From an uncultured Dehalococcoidia bacterium (GTDB lineage Bacteria; Chloroflexota; Dehalococcoidia; Lucifugimonadales; JAAXIE01), in NCBI GenBank assembly GCA_951813255.1, contig OX638353.1, forward strand, positions 3,210,782 to 3,274,781: 64,000 bases of DNA, read 5' to 3'. The notes under the pieces were generated by a model. The model saw only the letters and a program-made list of their open reading frames with translations, did not search any database and was not told the origin of the DNA. The position numbers were made by a program, and so were the translations under genes. Positions 8,241 through 63,272 of the stretch are shown here, in pieces. Positions within the stretch are counted from its first letter, which is position 1, and each line of letters opens with the position of its first letter.

Positions 8241-8700
8241 TATAGGAGAACGTAAGTCCTTGACAGCGCCCTTAACAGCGCCCTTAACAGCAACAATGGG
8301 GGCACGGAAAGGTCTCATGAGGCCACCACCTAGCGGCCAACGGCAAGCTGCCCCGATGCGGCCCTTGCCGCCCGCGTCGCCACGGTTCACAGCCGTACCT
8401 CGGGTTTCAGCCGAGGTCGTAGCCGTATGTCCGCTACAGTCACCCCTTCCCCTCCCTTCGTACTGCCGATGTCGATGGACACCGCCCCGGCCTTCCCCCA
8501 TATGCGCCTTTTCGCCCAAGCCCCTGTTCCTGAAAACGCGCCCGAGAACGCAGAAGAAGAATGTTCATAATGTTGATGCGTATGCACGCCCATGATGCTC
8601 ACAATGCAGTCAATGCAGCCAATTTTATTTTCCCCTTCCTCCTCTTGGCTTCCTCAAAGCTGGCTCCTATCTGGCCAGCTACCAATCCTGTGCCACGGGA
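8241..8700. other. Gene-free stretch with short degenerate repeats
   Basis: No supported gene lies here. It holds a 12-nt tandem (AGCGCCCTTAAC twice near 8266-8293), a region rich in GCGGCC/GCCGC words and degenerate CGTAGCCGTA words around 8335-8480, and an AATGCAGTC/AATGCAGCC doublet near 8602-8622. These look like decayed relatives of the tag arrays to the right. The frames on both strands are compositional. Confidence 0.5.
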
Positions 8701-8835
8701 ATGCACCGGGATTGCCACGGGATTGCACCGAGAGTTGCACGGGATTGCCACGGATATGCACCGAGAGTTGCACGGGATTGCCACGGGTATGCACCGAGAG
8801 TTGCACGGTATGTCTACCGGATTGCCACGGAATGC
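8701..8835. repeat. 33-nt tandem repeat, three copies plus partials
   Basis: The unit begins (A/T)TGCACCGAGAGTTGCAC and continues GGGATTGCCACGG. Copies start at 8723, 8756 and 8789, exactly 33 bp apart, with partial copies on both sides. Internally the unit alternates TTGCACGG and TTGCCACGG, so it is itself a decayed doublet. It is readable as an 11-residue peptide repeat (MHRELHGIATG), but no ribosome site or stable reading frame supports translation. Confidence 0.85.
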
Positions 8836-8859
8836 TGCAAAAGCTGCAACAACGCTCCG

Positions 8860-9016
8860 TCCTCAGATACAAACGTGAGACCATGGTCTCATGCCCCAGC
8901 TACAAACGTGAGACCACGGTCTCGCCAATGGTCCCATGCTCCAGCTACGAAAGTGAGACCACAGTCTCGCCAATGGCCGCACGTCCCAGATACAAACGTG
9001 AGACCACGGTCTCGCG
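8860..9016. repeat. Repeat array A: CAG(A/C)TAC scaffold with GAGACC/GGTCTC palindrome tag
   Basis: Four copies of CAG(A/C)TACAAACGTGAG begin at 8864, 8897, 8942 and 8987 (spacing 33, 45, 45). Each is followed by a 14-bp near-palindrome of the form GAGACCACGGTCTC. On the minus strand the scaffold reads GTA(G/T)CTG, the core shared with arrays at 18.1, 27.4 and 62.9 kb. The array lies between the divergent dsr-like operon and ftsH. Confidence 0.85.
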
Positions 9017-9175: not shown

Positions 9176-11134
9176 ATGGGAAGCGGAAGGTGGATGAGGA
9201 GCGGCTTTATCTACCTGCTGGTGATCATCGCGGTGATCGCCATCTTCTACATTCTCATTCCCCGGGGAGTGGGAGGGGAGCCGAAGCCTCTCAGCACCGT
9301 CATCGCTGACGCGGCCGCTGTGCCCCCTCGGATTAGTGAGATCGAGGTCTCTGCAGAAAAGCTGACCGTCACCACCGCCGGTGGAGAGAAGTATACGAGC
9401 CGCATTGGCGGAAACGCCGATCTTGAAGAACTCCTCCAAGGCGAGGGTATCTCTCTCAAAGACACTCCCATACAGATTACCCACAAGGGTTCTGGAGGCT
9501 TTGGCGGCTTCTTCCGTATCCTGGTTAGCTTCCTTCCCCTCATATTCTTTGGTGCTCTGATCCTCTTCATGATGCGTCAAGCCCAAGGCAGCAACAACCA
9601 GACCATGAGCTTCGGCCGCAGCCGGGCCCGCCTCTTCGTGGTCAACAAGCCGAACGTCACTTTCAGCGATGTTGCTGGAGTGGAAGAAGCTAAATACGAA
9701 CTCGAAGAGATAGTCGAATTCCTCAAGTACCCTGAAAGATTTCTCGCCCTCGGAGCCCGGATACCCACCGGTGTCCTGTTGGTAGGCCCCCCCGGTACAG
9801 GCAAGACGCTGCTGGCTAGGGCGGTGGCGGGAGAAGCAGGCGTACCGTTCTTCTCCATCAGTGGCAGTGAGTTCGTAGAGATGTTCGTCGGTGTTGGCGC
9901 CGCTCGTGTTCGCGACCTGTTCGACCAAGCGAAGCGTAACTCTCCCTGCATCGTGTTCGTGGACGAAATCGACGCCGTGGGACGCCATCGTGGTGCGGGC
10001 CTCGGAGGTGGGCACGATGAAAGGGAGCAGACCCTGAACCAGATTCTGGTGGAGATGGACGGCTTCGACACCGGCGTGAATATCATCGTTGTCGCAGCTA
10101 CCAACCGCCCCGATATCCTTGATCCTGCCCTCCTGCGCCCCGGGCGATTCGATCGTCGAGTGGTCCTGGACCTCCCCGATATGTCTGGGCGCAAGGCCAT
10201 CTTGGATGTACATGTGAAGGGCAAACCCCTCGCCCCGGATGTGGATGCTGAGGTGGTGGCCAAGCAGACCCCGGGCTTCAGTGGAGCCGATTTGTCCAAC
10301 TTGGTGAACGAGGCCGCCCTGCTGGCGGCTCGCGCCAACAAGAAAGCCATCAACCTGAATGAATTTCAAGAAGCGGTGGACCGGGTCATGGCTGGCCCTG
10401 AGCGCAGAAGTCGCCTCATCAGTGCCCGTCAGAAAGAGGTCACTGCCTACCACGAGGCGGGACATGCGTTGGTGGGCTGGAGCCTGCCCCATGCCGATAA
10501 GGTCCACAAAATCTCCATCATCAGCCGTGGCACCATGGGTGGGTACACCCGTTTCCTGCCCGCTGAGGACCGCGTCCTGTGGACCCGTGCGCAGTTCAAG
10601 GACATGATGACTACTGCCATGGGTGGGCGCGTTGCCGAGCTTGTGACCTTCGGTGAGATAGAAATCACCACCGGTGCCAGCAACGATCTCGAAACGGCCA
10701 CTAGGCTGGCCAAGGATATGGTGACCCGATATGGGATGAGCGAGAAGCTGGGCCCCCGCACCTTTGGCCGTCGTGAAGAAATGGTCTTCTTGGGCCGGGA
10801 GATATCGGAACAGCGGGACTACAGCGACAAGGTGGCCGAGGAGATCGACCAGGAAGTGCACACCTTGGTGCAGACTTCGTACGATCAAGCCAAGGATATT
10901 CTGACTGACAAGAAAGACAGCTTGGAGCGCATCGCCAAGTACCTGATCCAGTACGAGACAGTAGAGGGTGAGCAGTTGGACCGGTTGTTCGAGGGTCCGT
11001 TGCCTCCGTCGGAAGAGATGCCCGCTAGGCCCTCCGCTCCCACGCCTCCTCCATATTCAGGGCCCGCGGTGGCCCACCCCGCTCCTGCCATGCCGTCCCA
11101 GCATAACCCCAACGCCACAGCAGGGGACGCCTAG
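9176..11134 (+). CDS. ftsH: ATP-dependent zinc metalloprotease FtsH
   Basis: Membrane-anchored AAA+ protease that degrades misfolded membrane and regulatory proteins. Two transmembrane helices lie near residues 9-25 and 108-127 with an extracytoplasmic domain between. The AAA module has Walker A GPPGTGKT (204-211), Walker [10 protein letters not shown] and an SRH with arginines in RPGRFDRRV. The zinc motif HEAGH is at 426-430. The C-terminus is Pro-rich. The length of 652 aa is typical. The ribosome site is poor, and repeat array A lies just upstream. It is followed by a clear terminator hairpin, so it is probably monocistronic. Confidence 0.97.
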
Positions 11135-18059: not shown

Positions 18060-18185
18060 GTGGTGTTTTTGTATCTGCACTGGCAGACTGTTCGTAGCTG
18101 CGGCGAAGATGTTTGTAGCTATTTTCACTGCCAGTACTGCCACAGCCGTAGCTGATTTGTAGCTGGAACGAGACTGCCACAGCTT
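18060..18185. repeat. Repeat array B: GTA(G/T)CTG scaffold with ACTGCCA tag
   Basis: Cores occur at 18071 (GTATCTG), 18094, 18115 (GTAGCTA), 18148 and 18159 (GTAGCTG). The locus tag is ACTG(C/G)CA: a doublet CACTGCCAGTACTGCCACAG at 18126-18145 precedes the paired cores, a third copy follows at 18173-18181, and an inverted copy (TGGCAG) is at 18081. The layout of doublet, paired cores, then tag resembles arrays C and D. It lies between divergent genes. Confidence 0.75.
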
Positions 18186-25999: not shown

Positions 26000-27211
26000 C
26001 TAGCCTCGGGCGGCGAACTCGTTGCGGGCTTGGGTTACCAGGTCGGGGTTGGTGAGGAGGTCGCAGGCGGTGAGGGCTAGGACTTTTGCGGTGGCGATGG
26101 CGTTTTCGTGGGCTAGGTCGGTGATGGATGCCTCGGTCATGCGGATGGAGTGGCCGGGGACGGGTTCCTCGCTGACGGCGAAGCGCAGGTAGTAAGAGGG
26201 CATTCTCTGGCTGACGTTGCCGAAGTCGGTGGAGGCTCCGCCGCCGCGGTTGGTGCGGGTCTCGTGGACTTCCAAGCCTGACTGGGGGCAGTTGTTGTAA
26301 GCGGTGCGGGCCAAGGCCTCGTTGGGTTTGACGTTTTCGTATAACGGGTAGACTTCCTCGATTTCCAGACTGGCACCTGTCAGCAGGGCTGCGCCCTCGG
26401 CTACGCGTTTAACTTTTTCCACCACCTCGAGGAGGTAGGCGCTGTCGCGGGAGCGGAGCATGAAGTTGGCGGCGGCGAAGTCTGGGACTACGTTGGGGGC
26501 CTTGCCACCGTCGGTGATGACGCCGTGGATGCGGACGTCTTCCTTGAGGTGCTGGCGGAGGGCGTCGATGCCGGTGAAGAGGTGGATGACGGAGTTGAGG
26601 GCGTTGATGCCCTCGTGGGGGACGGTGGCGGCGTGGGAGGCCTTGCCGTGGTAGGCGTAGCGGTAGCCGACCATGGCGAGGCTCCAGCTTTCGTCCATGG
26701 CGATGTTGGTGGGAATGACGGTGATGTTGGACGAGGGATGGGATGAGAGGGAGATGTCGACGTCGGAAAAGGCGCCACCCTCGATCATGCGGACCTTTCC
26801 GCCACCGCCCTCTTCGGCGGGGGTGCCGAGGATGACGAGCTTGCCGGGGAGGTCGCGGAGGGCGCTGACTGCGCCGAGCATGGCGCCGAGGTTGGAGATG
26901 GCGATGAGGTTGTGGCCGCAGCCGTGGCCGATGTCGGGGAGGGCATCGTACTCGGCGAGGAAAGCCACGGTGGGGCCGTCGCCATTGCCTTGGGCCTCGG
27001 CGCGGAAGGCGGTCTCGACGCCGCCGGTGCCACGCTCGACGGAGAAGCCGTGGCGTTCGAGGGCGGTGGCGAGGGCTGCGGAGGAGTAGGTTTCCTGGTA
27101 GTTGAGTTCGGGGTGGGCGTGGATGTCCTTGCTGACGGCGACGAGTTCATCGCGGGCCTCGTCGATGGCTGCCTTGATCAGGTCAGCGTAGGGTTGCTGG
27201 TTGGTGGTCAT
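26000..27211 (-). CDS. M20 family metallo-amidohydrolase
   Basis: Protein of 403 aa of the M20D amidase subfamily (AbgB, hippurate and indole-3-acetyl-amino-acid hydrolases). Metal-binding blocks are HPELNYQE, GHGCGHN and TPAEEGGGGK, with a dimerisation insert (YHGKASHAATVPHEGINAL). It probably releases an amino acid or acyl group from an amide. AGGAGGACACC precedes the ATG. The first two-thirds of the gene has extreme third-position GC. Array C begins 70 bp upstream of its start. Confidence 0.9.
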   Translation of the reverse strand: MTTNQQPYADLIKAAIDEARDELVAVSKDIHAHPELNYQETYSSAALATALERHGFSVERGTGGVETAFRAEAQGNGDGPTVAFLAEYDALPDIGHGCGHNLIAISNLGAMLGAVSALRDLPGKLVILGTPAEEGGGGKVRMIEGGAFSDVDISLSSHPSSNITVIPTNIAMDESWSLAMVGYRYAYHGKASHAATVPHEGINALNSVIHLFTGIDALRQHLKEDVRIHGVITDGGKAPNVVPDFAAANFMLRSRDSAYLLEVVEKVKRVAEGAALLTGASLEIEEVYPLYENVKPNEALARTAYNNCPQSGLEVHETRTNRGGGASTDFGNVSQRMPSYYLRFAVSEEPVPGHSIRMTEASITDLAHENAIATAKVLALTACDLLTNPDLVTQARNEFAARG

Positions 27212-27280
27212 GGTGTCCTCCTTGGGGTTGGTGGTTGCGATGTCACAATGTCAGAGCAGGTCGCGGTTTGGGGGGGGTGG

Positions 27281-27636
27281 CGGTCTCATTTGTCTCATGG
27301 TTGTATGTGAGCCAGCTACGAAAATCCGGTTTCATTCCGGGAGATTTCGTAGCTGCGAAAACAGGGGGTGAGAGGAGCGTTCGTAGCTGATGAGACAACA
27401 ATCGTAGCTGTAGCGAATTTTTCGTAGCTGAAAGTTGTCTCATTGTCTCATTGTTGTATCTGGGCCAGCTAGGAAAACGTTGTCTCACGCGGGGCAATTT
27501 CGTATCTGGAGAGCGGCGAGAAATGGTGACAAAAGGAGACAAGGCCGTAGCTGGGGACGGGATTTGTAGGGCTGAAATTTGTCTCATTTGTCTCATGGTT
27601 GTATCTGAGTCAGCTACGAAAGATTTGTCTCGTTCA
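27281..27636. repeat. Repeat array C: GTA(G/T)CTG scaffold with TTGTCTCAT tag
   Basis: Three units of about 150 bp. Each opens with a direct tag doublet ending at 27298, 27451 and 27596, followed by a partial dyad GTAT(C/G)TGxxxCAGCTAxGAAA at 27303, 27456 and 27601. Further GTA(G/T)CTG cores lie at 27359, 27383, 27403, 27423, 27502 and 27547. Inverted tags also occur, as in GTAGCTGATGAGACA at 27383-27397. The array fills the divergent gap between the M20 gene and the HEPN gene. Confidence 0.88.
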
Positions 27637-27946
27637 AGGGGTCTGGAAGGCGAGTTGGGGATGGGGTATGGGTCCCGCGCGCGCGGGCACGAGAGCGGGG
27701 TTGGCACGGGGATAGTTGGCCCCGGTTGGCTGGTTGCGGGTTGGGCTGGGTGTTGGGAGTGGTGCATGGGGTGATGATAGAACGCATGTGCGTTGGGTGT
27801 CAAGGGGGGAGGTGTCATGGGGGGAGTCTGCCATCCAGCTTCCAGATTTGAACACTGAACGGGAGAATCGATGTGATTGTCTTGTAATCTGTTCGGCGTC
27901 TACGGCACCGTGCTATAGTGACAGGTACAGGCGATAAGGACTACCC
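27637..27946. other. Intergenic, no supported gene
   Basis: G-rich sequence right of array C, including a GCGCGCGCG run near 27677. A TATAGT element at 27914-27919 may be the -10 of the HEPN gene, but no matching -35 is evident. The 191-codon minus-strand frame through here and array C looks compositional. Confidence 0.45.
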
Positions 27947-28318
27947 ATGACCACCTTGACACAAGACCACATTCAGATTTCAGAAGACTTCCTCAAACGG
28001 GCCCAAGCCTACTTCGCCCAAGGGGACTTGCACCAAGCATCTGAGAAGGGTTGGGGCGCAGCTGCGCACATGGCTAAGGCAGCGGCGGCGGCCCATGGCT
28101 GGACATATGAGACCCACGATGACTTCTTCCAGATAATCCGGCAGGCATCGAACAGGCTTGGTGACAGACGCCTTCACACATGGCGCAAGAGCGCCAATGA
28201 CCTCCACAGGAACTTCTACGTGCGAAAGATGTTCCTCGACTCCGAGACCATCGAAGACGACCTGAACGACGTCGTTATGCTTGCGGACGCGTTGAAGGGC
28301 CTCGCGACCGCAAGGTAG
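27947..28318 (+). CDS. PaREP1-like HEPN-domain protein
   Basis: All-helical protein of 123 aa. ISEDFLKRAQAYFAQGDLHQASEKGWGAAAHMAKAAAAAHGW and the C-terminal segment RKSANDLHRNFY fit the PaREP1/HEPN superfamily. HEPN proteins are often RNases with an R-x(4-6)-H motif; RKSANDLH could be that motif. AAGGACTACCC precedes the ATG. No nucleotidyltransferase (MNT) partner lies next to it. It opens the defence-like island. The alternative is a non-catalytic HEPN scaffold. Confidence 0.7.
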   Translation: MTTLTQDHIQISEDFLKRAQAYFAQGDLHQASEKGWGAAAHMAKAAAAAHGWTYETHDDFFQIIRQASNRLGDRRLHTWRKSANDLHRNFYVRKMFLDSETIEDDLNDVVMLADALKGLATAR

Positions 28319-28464: not shown

Positions 28465-29961
28465 ATGTCGCTTAACAGACCTGTGCTCCTGTCCAAGTCA
28501 CGGTTTTTAGCAGGCCTCCAATGCCTGAAGCGGCTTTATCTCGACTGCCATCATCGCGAGCTTGCGGACCCGGTGAGCGCCAGCCACCAAGCTATCTTTG
28601 ATACCGGACACACCGTCGGTGCGTTAGCTAGGGGCCGATTTCCCGGTGGAACTCTAGTCGATGAGCCGTACTTTGAACACGACCAGGCTGAGCGAAGGAC
28701 CCAAGTCCTGTTGCGTGATCAGTCGGTGCCGGCGTTGTACGAGCCTGCATTCTCCTTTGCCGACATTAGGACGAGAGTGGATGTGCTGCTACGCACATCC
28801 GGCAAGGCTTTCGACCTGATTGAAGTGAAGTCCACTGCAAGCGCCAAGGACGAACATATCCCGGACGTGGCCATCCAGATGCATGTGGTGGAGGGATGTG
28901 GGATTCCTGTCGCGCGGGCCTACCTGATGCACCTGAATACCGCATACGTATACACGGGTGGAGACCACGACCTAACGGAGCTATTCTCCCTGAGGGATGT
29001 GACCGACGAGGCTAGGGAGTACGCTGCTGAGGAGATGCCCGACGAATTATTCCAGATGTGGGAGGGGATGCGACAAGCCGATACGCTGGATATCGACACA
29101 GGCAGGCATTGCGTCCGGCCATACGTCTGCCCGTTCTTCGGACACTGTCACCGGAATGAGCTGGAGCATCCAATCGAGGAGTTACCGGGCCTGACGCCAC
29201 GGGCCGAAGAACGATTGCGGGCCTCGGGGATAGGGGTTGTGGCTGACATCCCTTCGGACTTCCCGGGTCTGTCGAGGCTGCAGAGCCGTGTGCGCGAAAG
29301 CGTGATTTCTCGACAGCCGTTCATCGGGGAAGGGCTACGGGAAAGGCTGAGGGAGATTGCGTTCCCTGCGAGTTTCCTAGACTTCGAGGCGTTGAACTCC
29401 GCTATCCCAACTTATGTCGGCACACGGCCATTCCAGACGGTCCCCTTTCAATGGTCGCTACATGTGCGAGAGGCGGACGGTGGTTTGAGGCACTGCACGT
29501 TTCTAGCGGAGGGCGTGGAGGACCCGCGAGAAGAACTGATAACAACCCTGCTCGAGGCAGTCCCATCCCAGGGCACGATAGTTGCTTACTCAAACTATGA
29601 GCGCAGCGTGCTGAAGAGTCTCGCCTTGGCTTTCCCGCAATGGGAGGAGCGCGTGTTGGATTTGTGCGATCGTGTTGTCGACCTGCACAAGTTAGTCAGG
29701 GAATGCTATTACCACCCGGAGATGCGAGGCAGTTTCTCCATCAAGGCGGTGCTTCCCGTCTTGGTACCTGACCTAGGCTATGGCGACCTTGATATCGGAG
29801 AGGGCAGGGCTGCGGCGGCAGCCTTTGCGCACAGTATCGCGGCGGGCACTGCTGAGGATGAGCGCGCAGCGATTCGAGAATCGTTGCTTGCTTACTGCAA
29901 GCGGGACACAGAAGCGATGGTTCGGGTGTATGAGGCTCTCAAAGAGGACGTCGGGGAGTAA
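28465..29961 (+). CDS. Cas4-like nuclease fused to DEDD exonuclease domain (DUF2779)
   Basis: Protein of 498 aa. The N-terminal half resembles a RecB/Cas4 PD-(D/E)XK nuclease: R-rich start, C20, DLIEVKSTAS as the E-x-K motif near residue 120, and C216, C222 and C228, which with C20 could hold an Fe-S cluster. The C-terminal half is DUF2779, an RNase H-like exonuclease domain with FLDFEALNSAIP (D306, E308), VAYSNYE and a late LLAYCKRDTEAM. It likely processes or degrades nucleic acid. It is flanked by HEPN and PD-(D/E)XK genes, and no cas genes are present. A GAGGTGCC ribosome site precedes the ATG. Confidence 0.8.
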   Translation: MSLNRPVLLSKSRFLAGLQCLKRLYLDCHHRELADPVSASHQAIFDTGHTVGALARGRFPGGTLVDEPYFEHDQAERRTQVLLRDQSVPALYEPAFSFADIRTRVDVLLRTSGKAFDLIEVKSTASAKDEHIPDVAIQMHVVEGCGIPVARAYLMHLNTAYVYTGGDHDLTELFSLRDVTDEAREYAAEEMPDELFQMWEGMRQADTLDIDTGRHCVRPYVCPFFGHCHRNELEHPIEELPGLTPRAEERLRASGIGVVADIPSDFPGLSRLQSRVRESVISRQPFIGEGLRERLREIAFPASFLDFEALNSAIPTYVGTRPFQTVPFQWSLHVREADGGLRHCTFLAEGVEDPREELITTLLEAVPSQGTIVAYSNYERSVLKSLALAFPQWEERVLDLCDRVVDLHKLVRECYYHPEMRGSFSIKAVLPVLVPDLGYGDLDIGEGRAAAAAFAHSIAAGTAEDERAAIRESLLAYCKRDTEAMVRVYEALKEDVGE

Positions 29962-61423: not shown

Positions 61424-62677
61424 TCAATCATCCCTCCCCGCATTCATTGCCCCGCCCTTCAATACCCGCGCCAGCTCGATGAGCGCGGCTGCCGCAGCCC
61501 GGCGCTTGATGGTGACACGCCTTGGCGGCAGACGGTGCTGTTGCACCTGCACCTGATTCCCGTCGTCGAGAGCAACGAATACCAAGCCCACGGGGTGCCC
61601 CTCGATCTCCGTCGGGCCGGCTACGCCCGTGATGCCGAGTCCGTAGTCGGTGCCCAGAGTCATGCGCACGGTTTGCGCCATGGCGCGGGCCGTCTCCTCG
61701 CTGACCTCGCCGTGGTGTTCGATGATGGAGGCGTCTACTCCAGCGGCCACCTTGGCCTCCTTGGAGTAGGGCGTGACGCTGCCCTTGAAGTAGGCTGACG
61801 CGCCGGGCACATCGGTGATGGAACTGGCCAGCTGACCTCCGGTGCAGGTCTCCATCACGGCTAGGGTCTTCTGTTGGGCTGCCAGCAGACTGCCCACCAC
61901 CTGCTCCGGCGTCTCGTCGTCGAAGCCCCATACATGGGGGCGCATCGCCTCCACTACTCCGGTTTCCACGGGACGCACCATGGCCCATGCATTCTCAGGG
62001 TCGGTGGCCTTGGCGATGATGCGCAGGTGGATGCCGTCGGGCTTGGCGTAGATGCCAAGGTAGGGGTTCTCCCTGCCGAGCCAAGGCGATATCAACTCGT
62101 CCACCAACGCCTCCGACAGGCCGTTGGTCTTGATGTTGCGGGTGACGATCACCTGCCCCCGGTCGCGCTTCAGCAGACGGGGGGCCACCTCATCCTGCCA
62201 CATGCCCTGCATCTCCACGGGAGGCCCAGGCATGGCTACGATGATCCTGCCCTTGGTTTCCACCCACCAGCCGGGCGCGGTGCCCCGTGGGTTGGGTATG
62301 GCCTCAGCCGAGGGTATGAGTTGTGCCTGTTTGATGTTGCGCGGGGGCATGTCGGTGCCACGGCTGCGAAAGATGTCTTCCAAGCGCTGCACTAGGGCGG
62401 GGTCCACAACGGTCTCCTCGCCCAGTGCCCGGGCGATGCAGTCGCGGGTCAGGTCGTCTTGGGTGGGGCCCAACCCTCCCGTGGTGAAGATGACATCAGA
62501 CCGCTCCAAGCCCCTCACGAAAGCACCCGTAAGCTGTTCCGGGTCATCTCCCACCAGCGTTGCCCACTGCAGGTCGATGCCCAGTGGCGGTAGACGAGAG
62601 GCTAGGAATGGGGAATTGGTGTCGGCCAGTTCTCCCATCAGGAGTTCAGTGCCAATGGCCAGAAGCTCGGCTTTCAT
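61424..62677 (-). CDS. cinA: CinA family protein (nicotinamide-nucleotide amidase)
   Basis: Protein of 417 aa with the N-terminal molybdopterin-binding-like COG1058 domain (ELLAIGTELLMGELADTNS, FTTGGLGPTQDDLT) and C-terminal CinA amidase domain (LAVMETCTGGQLASSITDVPGAS, GITGVAGPTEIEGHPVGLVF). It recycles NMN to nicotinate mononucleotide and can hydrolyse ADP-ribose. GAAGGA lies 10 nt before the ATG. Array D starts about 25 bp upstream of its start codon, so any cinA promoter must lie in or beyond the repeats. Confidence 0.92.
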   Translation of the reverse strand: MKAELLAIGTELLMGELADTNSPFLASRLPPLGIDLQWATLVGDDPEQLTGAFVRGLERSDVIFTTGGLGPTQDDLTRDCIARALGEETVVDPALVQRLEDIFRSRGTDMPPRNIKQAQLIPSAEAIPNPRGTAPGWWVETKGRIIVAMPGPPVEMQGMWQDEVAPRLLKRDRGQVIVTRNIKTNGLSEALVDELISPWLGRENPYLGIYAKPDGIHLRIIAKATDPENAWAMVRPVETGVVEAMRPHVWGFDDETPEQVVGSLLAAQQKTLAVMETCTGGQLASSITDVPGASAYFKGSVTPYSKEAKVAAGVDASIIEHHGEVSEETARAMAQTVRMTLGTDYGLGITGVAGPTEIEGHPVGLVFVALDDGNQVQVQQHRLPPRRVTIKRRAAAAALIELARVLKGGAMNAGRDD

Positions 62678-62698: not shown

Positions 62699-63100
62699 GG
62701 ATGGGGCCGCGTTGGCCGCATGGTCGTATCTGCATCAGATTGGCGGGTGTGGCCGCAATTCGGCATTTTCCGTAGCTGCGGGAGCGGGGCATGAGGGGGC
62801 ATTGGCGTAGCAGATGCGGCCAAATTCGTAGCTAAGAAGGACTTTTTCGTATCTGGGAGTGGCCGCATTGGCCGCATAATCGTATCTGAACCAGCTTGCG
62901 TGGGGTGGCCGCATGGGGGCATTTTTCGTATCTGCGGGGGTACTGGAAGAGGGCGCATTGGGGCAGCAGGCTGGGACAACGGCGTAGCTGGGATGACGTG
63001 GTTCCCGCTTGAAAGTGGCCGCATTGGCCGCATAATCGTATCTAAGGCAGCTTGCGGGGAGTGGCCGCATTTGAGCGCAGTATGTAGCTGTGGAGGGGCG
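62699..63100. repeat. Repeat array D: GTA(G/T)CTG scaffold with TGGCCGCAT tag, 156-bp period
   Basis: Three units whose tag doublets end at 62721, 62877 and 63033, exactly 156 bp apart. Each doublet is followed by CGTATCT(G/A) at 62725, 62881 and 63037 and a degenerate CAG(A/C)T arm. Extra cores are at 62771, 62828 (GTAGCTA), 62849, 62928, 62982 and 63092. An inverted tag follows GTAGCAGATG at 62807. Layout matches array C base for base in spacing, but the tag differs. Frames of both 168 and 111 codons run through on the minus strand because the period is a multiple of three. Confidence 0.9.
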
Positions 63101-63227: not shown

Positions 63228-63272
63228 GAAAGTAAAGGCAGGGGGGACCCGTGAGGGATCAGTCCCCTGCCT
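63225..63272 (-). terminator. Rho-independent terminator of the DUF4340 gene
   Basis: AGGCAGGGG (63236-63244) pairs with CCCCTGCCT (63264-63272). In the minus-strand direction the stem is followed by TTACTTTCG. It lies about 80 bp past the stop at 63353. Confidence 0.65.

Follow-up and report, generated by a model that had tools for sequence, protein, structure and literature searches.

Arrays C and D, two sets of short repeats in the 64,000-nucleotide stretch of an uncultured Dehalococcoidia genome analysed here (the window; contig OX638353.1, positions 3,210,782 to 3,274,781), are members of one dispersed family of ∼110–120 units with a common scaffold. On this scaffold about a dozen six-letter words are carried, direct and inverted, in a regular geometry that defines word classes, and the words of a unit change jointly. 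The elements are placed one way with respect to the genes that follow them, and they are present at six of the eight genes for small terminase subunits (TerS) in the genome.

Arrays C and D and their common scaffold

Array C (27281–27650, minus strand, the strand of the gene it precedes) is, as judged from genome copies and alignment, a ∼370 bp copy of an element with the word GTCTCA, and contains three partial units; nine copies of its whole length, 80–100% identical, occur in the 3.40-Mb genome, together with further, more distant ones. Its tag, TTGTCTCAT, starts at 27290, 27435, 27443, 27579 and 27588 on the plus strand, and stands inverted (ATGAGACAA; 27390–27398, minus strand) immediately after CGTAGCTG (27382–27389). 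These six occurrences compare with 0.30 expected, and none of 100 shuffles attained six. The direct copies and fixed inverted copy reported in the preliminary description are therefore present far above chance; its three doublet places also exist, but the first doublet is imperfect, consisting of GGTCTCAT and then TTGTCTCAT. The best complete unit (27380–27457, plus strand in unit orientation; 69.7 bits, E = 2e-14 with the model R1 described below) comprises inverted word, core, T-run, core and doublet. The doublet itself, TTGTCTCAT/TTGTCTCAT with a period of 8, occupies 27435–27451 (plus strand), and an inverted core pair of the pattern GTAKCTGN3CAGCTA, TTGTATCTGGGCCAGCTAGGA, lies at 27454–27474 (plus strand). 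Just to the left of the array are the surviving left end (ATGTCACAATGTCAGAGC; 27240–27257, plus strand) of a GTGACA-word element that has been mostly deleted ahead of array C, and the start of an M20 peptidase gene (26000–27211, minus strand; Pfam PF01546, 2e-11). To its right are a PaREP1/HEPN-domain gene (27947–28315) and then a gene for a DUF2779 protein (28465–29961).

Array D (62704–63075, minus strand; R1 unit at 62804–62883) is a GCCGCA-word element upstream of cinA (61424–62677, minus strand, downstream of the array in the sense direction; Pfam CinA, 3e-44). As had been proposed for it, it follows the same pattern with a tag of its own, TGGCCGCAT, present in seven direct copies and one inverted copy (8 seen, 1.1 expected), the inverted copy (62814–62822, minus strand) standing after GTAGCAG. 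On the far side of the array lies a leader hairpin, GGCAGGGG...GGGATCAGTCCCCTGCC (63235–63272, minus strand), with the same motif as is found before terS genes. The sense frames of arrays C and D (191 and 168 aa) matched no family, and the frame is broken wherever a class has a core spacing of 20 or 22 bp; the arrays are therefore probably not coding.

The window holds further members. A unit with the word CTGCCA, which is also the word of the TerS gene at 2833253, lies at 18070–18149 (plus strand; R1 E = 3e-14), and a divergent array of GTCTC/GAGAC words and CAGCTAC cores at 8845–9015 (plus strand) lies upstream of ftsH (9176–11134, plus strand; Peptidase_M41, 5e-71), whose product has its nearest relatives in Chloroflexi, Dehalococcoidia and SAR202 MAGs (60–68% identity). 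Tandem TGCCACGGGAT/TGCACCGGGAT repeats at 8691–8835 adjoin this array, and G/C-rich repeats resembling them flank the elements at 1397116 and 1197219. Overall, CGTAKCTG occurs 22 times in the window as compared with 2.9 expected.

Flanking DNA of ∼100 places in the genome was gathered for comparison, and model R1 was built from 35 units. A search of the genome with R1 gave 123 matches, ∼113 of them with E < 1e-5. The pattern GTAKCTGN3CAGCTA occurs 33 times, against 0 in the reversed control, and TTCGTAKCTR 200 times, against 19 in the control. Written opposite to the gene that it precedes, a unit consists of an inverted word, ∼7 nt, GTAKCTR, 13–15 nt ending in a T-run, a second GTAKCTR, 4–6 nt, a word, 2–3 nt and the word again; the doublet is often followed by an inverted core pair, GTATCTGNNCCAGCTAG, plus one more word. 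The two cores are 20, 21 or 22 bp apart, a distance that is almost fixed inside each word class. In the 105 units that could be parsed the inverted tag keeps a constant offset from the core, so that its fixed place, seen originally in two arrays, holds genome-wide. The commonest words in these units are CTGCAA (23), GTGACA (15), GTCTCA (12), CTGCGA (9) and CTGCCA (8), followed by GTCGAA, GCCGCA and TCCGCA (5 each); GTGCCA, TTCCCA, TTCCGA, TTCTCA, GTAGAG and GTGAAG are among the rare ones. In the 35-unit alignment (A1) the word ends in A, in the same register, in 34 units.

The strict core pattern is absent from the GTDB r220 contigs and from 58 genomes of the same order, and R1 with stricter filters found no match in either 146 genomes of the order or 399 of the phylum, among which very near relatives may be missing. 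When 400 kb from three genomes of the order was scanned, without the core, for a doublet together with an inverted word, only a low background appeared. Seventeen aligned GTGACA-class elements have ∼240 bp in common; their left edge, at AATGTCACA, is sharp, and their flanks are unrelated. This alignment shows no clear target-site duplication of the kind that marks a transposable element or MITE, and its right-end boundaries are fuzzy. At 1538917 the segment that separates two direct words has been deleted. A GTGACA element stands directly before a GTCTCA element at 366494, 1254224 and 1538917, where it is partly deleted.

Inverted and direct words change together

According to the preliminary description the two forms of the tag should vary in concert, and they do so strongly. 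The inverted word equals a direct word exactly in 86 of 105 units, and in at least five of six letters in 101, while a match of five in six was obtained in only 163 of 4046 cross-word controls (4%); ∼20 of the parsed units lay outside the training set. Exact matches were seen in 19 of 21 units found later by the model, a set that is not fully independent because the model includes pairing. A match of at least 7 bp was present in 85% of units as compared with 3.3% when the word came from a different class; when each class was represented by a single unit, 9.4 of 10 matched their own partner and 0.28 of 10 a deranged one. In alignment A1, pairing with the inverted word was present in 93.8% of cells for tag 1 and 95.7% for tag 2. 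Covariation was 0.70 and 0.82, respectively (shuffles, 0.21 and 0.24), and slid registers gave pairing in only 24–53% of cells. Inside word classes the word is conserved and the spacers have diverged. Both tandem copies match the inverted word equally, and a partner word borrowed from a different element of the class is nearly as good as the unit's own (0.77 versus 0.85, at least 7 bp).

The cause first suggested, pairing in RNA or in a cruciform, is not favoured. Of 15 non-Watson–Crick cells in the tag 1 stem, five were of the wobble type, which is the chance rate, and these were split 2:3 between the strands. The suggested folding of both strands as RNA gave z-scores of −4.0 and −4.1, and so no strand preference; such equality is what any inverted repeat gives. 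Judged as a structured RNA or riboswitch class, the elements have a covarying helix and show neither wobble excess nor strand bias. In hybrid units at 2602464, 3399536 and 1030302, the first two of which are a recent duplicate, the inverted word and the doublets belong to different classes, and local pairing is thereby broken. Because the mismatches show no G–U excess and no strand bias, one DNA word read in either orientation is a better explanation than RNA pairing, and we consider this conclusion well supported. The hybrids, the interchangeable partners and the strand symmetry are as expected if a protein reads a double-stranded word in either orientation. Cruciform-type events may nevertheless occur: some GTGACA copies have the loop between the inverted words in the opposite orientation (CAGATACGAAAA versus TTCGTATCTGGGG, for example at 366494 versus 492272), possibly by a cruciform or template-switch event.

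Placement before host genes and at terminase loci

Among the loci whose DNA was retrieved, a simple codon-usage gene caller placed a gene start on the inverted-word side, with the gene reading away from the element and usually within ∼200 bp, at 69 of 81 elements. On the other side gene starts and ends were about even (30 to 37). Eighteen of 20 loci not used before agreed with this placement. Taken together, 87 of 101 loci have the element upstream of a start codon and facing the same way (p = 2e-14). More than 80 copies precede host genes, and these are mixed: the M20 peptidase, CinA and FtsH genes in the window and, elsewhere in the genome and mostly as read by eye, those for LeuRS, HisRS, GlyRS, UvrB, RuvB, RelA, SHMT and many oxidoreductases. 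One gene has been duplicated together with its upstream element (2602385 and 3399457; 98.5% protein identity). Beyond 22 of 108 units, among them units at host genes, there is a leader hairpin with the core GGGGACTGACCCC that also precedes terS genes; the reversed control gave 0.

Two units abut small genes encoding a helix-turn-helix, and a profile of these genes identified eight strong TerS paralogs in the genome, which match PHROG 4044 (terminase small subunit; E down to 4e-23). Five of these genes contain an element within their 5′ coding region, and one has it just upstream of the start, so that six of the eight paralogs carry one and two do not. The five internal elements are in frame, and CAGCTACGA there reads Ser-Tyr-Asp/Glu. 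The core spacing is 21 bp in all six, and their words all differ (CTGCCA at 2833253, CTGCAA at 2670463, GTCTCA at 3127886, GTCGAA at 2548036, GTAGAG and GTGAAG/CTGAAG). A large terminase gene (TerL) follows four of the eight TerS genes (PHROG 2, E = 4e-31), and one TerS–TerL locus also has a portal gene (PHROG 2662, 1e-75). The TerS–TerL–portal run (2832076–2836578) is probably a prophage or gene-transfer-agent remnant, and the three other TerS–TerL pairs, as read by eye, are apparently followed by host-type genes. A small, zinc-ribbon-like frame with two CxxC motifs precedes TerS at loci L324–L326 and is fused to it at L330.

Similar recognition helices go with similar words: CTGCCA and CTGCAA with ERTIYNW, and GTCGAA and GTAGAG with HR[ST]TPY[VF]W. 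Over the six proteins the correlation of helix with word is weak (Mantel r = 0.53, p = 0.058), and no TerS gene lies beside the large word classes GTGACA, CTGCGA, GCCGCA and TCCGCA. Elsewhere in the order the TerS family gave only weak matches, in three other genomes.

Viral relatives of these TerS proteins call for caution. In prophage-like viral contigs with a related TerS, tandem and inverted words lie upstream of terS; they differ between phages whose TerS is nearly identical, and the arrays directly follow VapE or D5 primase/helicase genes. The arrays stand 400–770 bp upstream of the terS match (L402, L404, L409–L412 and L417), with the words GTGGAG, TACACC, GTAATG, TGGGAC, ATGGACC and AAGACA, and are likely to be replication-origin iterons with swapped words. 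Since these words vary while TerS is almost constant, joint change of words does not prove that TerS is the reader, and such words, directly following a primase/helicase gene, can be read by another protein. Among 67 viral terS 5′ regions, word arrays were present in three, compared with two to nine in control regions, which is no excess, and the core was absent; four viral core matches were discarded as chance matches in coding DNA without arrays.

Candidate readers and relation to known systems

The pac site of SPP1 overlaps the promoters, ribosome binding site and 5′ coding region of terS (PMC6316719), and that of P22 is located in the TerS gene (PMC9611059). Elements likewise stand in or before terS at six of the TerS loci described here, and we read the elements as pac-like sites of a diversified TerS family that derive from the terS 5′ region and have been copied before more than 80 host genes, a proposal to which we give an even chance. 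Equally balanced is the case for the TerS paralogs as readers of the words, which is the best lead. Each word would be read in double-stranded DNA by the helix-turn-helix of the matching TerS, and the invariant core, the A/T-tract and the spacing of 21 bp (two turns) would be the common frame; direct and inverted tags would then change together because both must carry one reader's word. The chromosomal copies may have arrived with the terS promoter and leader, and may now be TerS-responsive promoter elements or marks for the packaging of genes. Against this proposal, there would be no need for a general packaging signal to adjoin start codons. It is conceivable, if rather doubtful, that the TerS set has been domesticated into a multi-word network, with packaging-type sites facing the same way before more than 100 genes, in which each TerS controls its genes or marks them for packaging and transfer by a phage or gene-transfer agent.

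The likeness to the pac and cosB sites of SPP1, P22 and lambda lies in the position in or just before terS and beside terL, the orientation, the helix-turn-helix of the small terminase and the short repeated binding words. The present elements, as putative binding sites, differ in standing before host gene starts and in having about a dozen words on one scaffold; a position in or before terS is found at six of eight TerS paralogs, but not at the >80 host-gene copies. Host chromosomes can hold pseudo-pac sites (PMC11226127); those of P22 are about ten chance matches, whereas here there are more than 100 chromosomal copies. Direct repeats of the heptamer TAACTGA precede start codons in Beggiatoaceae, cyanobacteria and Bacteroidetes (PMC4679880). 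They too are short and form more than 100 sets ahead of unrelated genes; however, they have a single heptamer, almost no inverted copies and no scaffold core, and they adjoin the ribosome binding site, whereas the elements here lie ∼100 bp upstream. REP/REPIN sequences with their RAYT resemble the elements in being short, dispersed and intergenic, with a GTAG motif and inverted parts, and were rejected because the genome contains no Y1 transposase (PF01797). Iteron-type origins of phages and satellites (P4, SaPI rep-ori) have tandem and inverted short words that differ between relatives; in contrast, the elements here number more than 100, in a fixed position before host genes, and no primase gene was found among the flanking genes read beside the chromosomal elements examined. 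Mobile promoters resemble them as near-identical upstream regions ahead of unrelated genes, but are not known to carry swappable words on a constant scaffold.

Three other explanations were weighed against the pac-like reading. The elements could be operators of an ordinary transcription-factor family, in which the core binds a shared partner and each word a paralogous regulator, the TerS loci being members of the regulon. The one-way placement upstream of start codons (87 of 101 loci, p = 2e-14), the conservation of words inside classes with diverged spacers and the joining of two words in hybrid doublets all fit such operators; set against these are the lack of a common theme among the downstream genes (tRNA synthetases, uvrB, ruvB, relA, ftsH, cinA and many catabolic enzymes), the fact that no regulator genes other than TerS were noticed beside elements, and the elements inside terS coding regions. 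On balance we think operators of this kind unlikely, though worth keeping in view. We see less reason to believe that the elements are dispersed promoter or leader repeats with no present reader, whose words are kept alike by recombination or template switching. Near-identical copies ahead of unrelated genes, the deletion between direct words at 1538917, the flipped loop between inverted words, the 98.5% identical duplicate at 2602385/3399457 and the leader hairpin common to elements would be accounted for; yet words and cores persist at fixed offsets while spacers diverge, even in elements with short similarity only, gene conversion normally does not stop at 6-bp islands, and the alignment has no clear target-site duplication.

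Most improbable of the three is the RNA leader hairpin of the preliminary description, in which inverted and direct words would pair in the 5′ untranslated region and tandem copies compete. It would explain the strong covariation and the position upstream of start codons, but not the chance level of wobble, the equal folding of both strands with no strand preference, the large variable loops or the hybrid units, and the window has no Rfam match.

Few known bacterial systems place a whole set of swappable recognition words, on one scaffold, before a hundred genes. Even without TerS, the elements are a clean case of distant short words changing jointly in one genome. DNA recognition by small terminases has been described as still unclear (PMC9611059), and if the link to TerS is true, this genome would hold a natural set of matched protein–word pairs for small terminases; phage packaging machinery in Chloroflexota would then have been linked with the control of host genes or with the directed transfer of genes.
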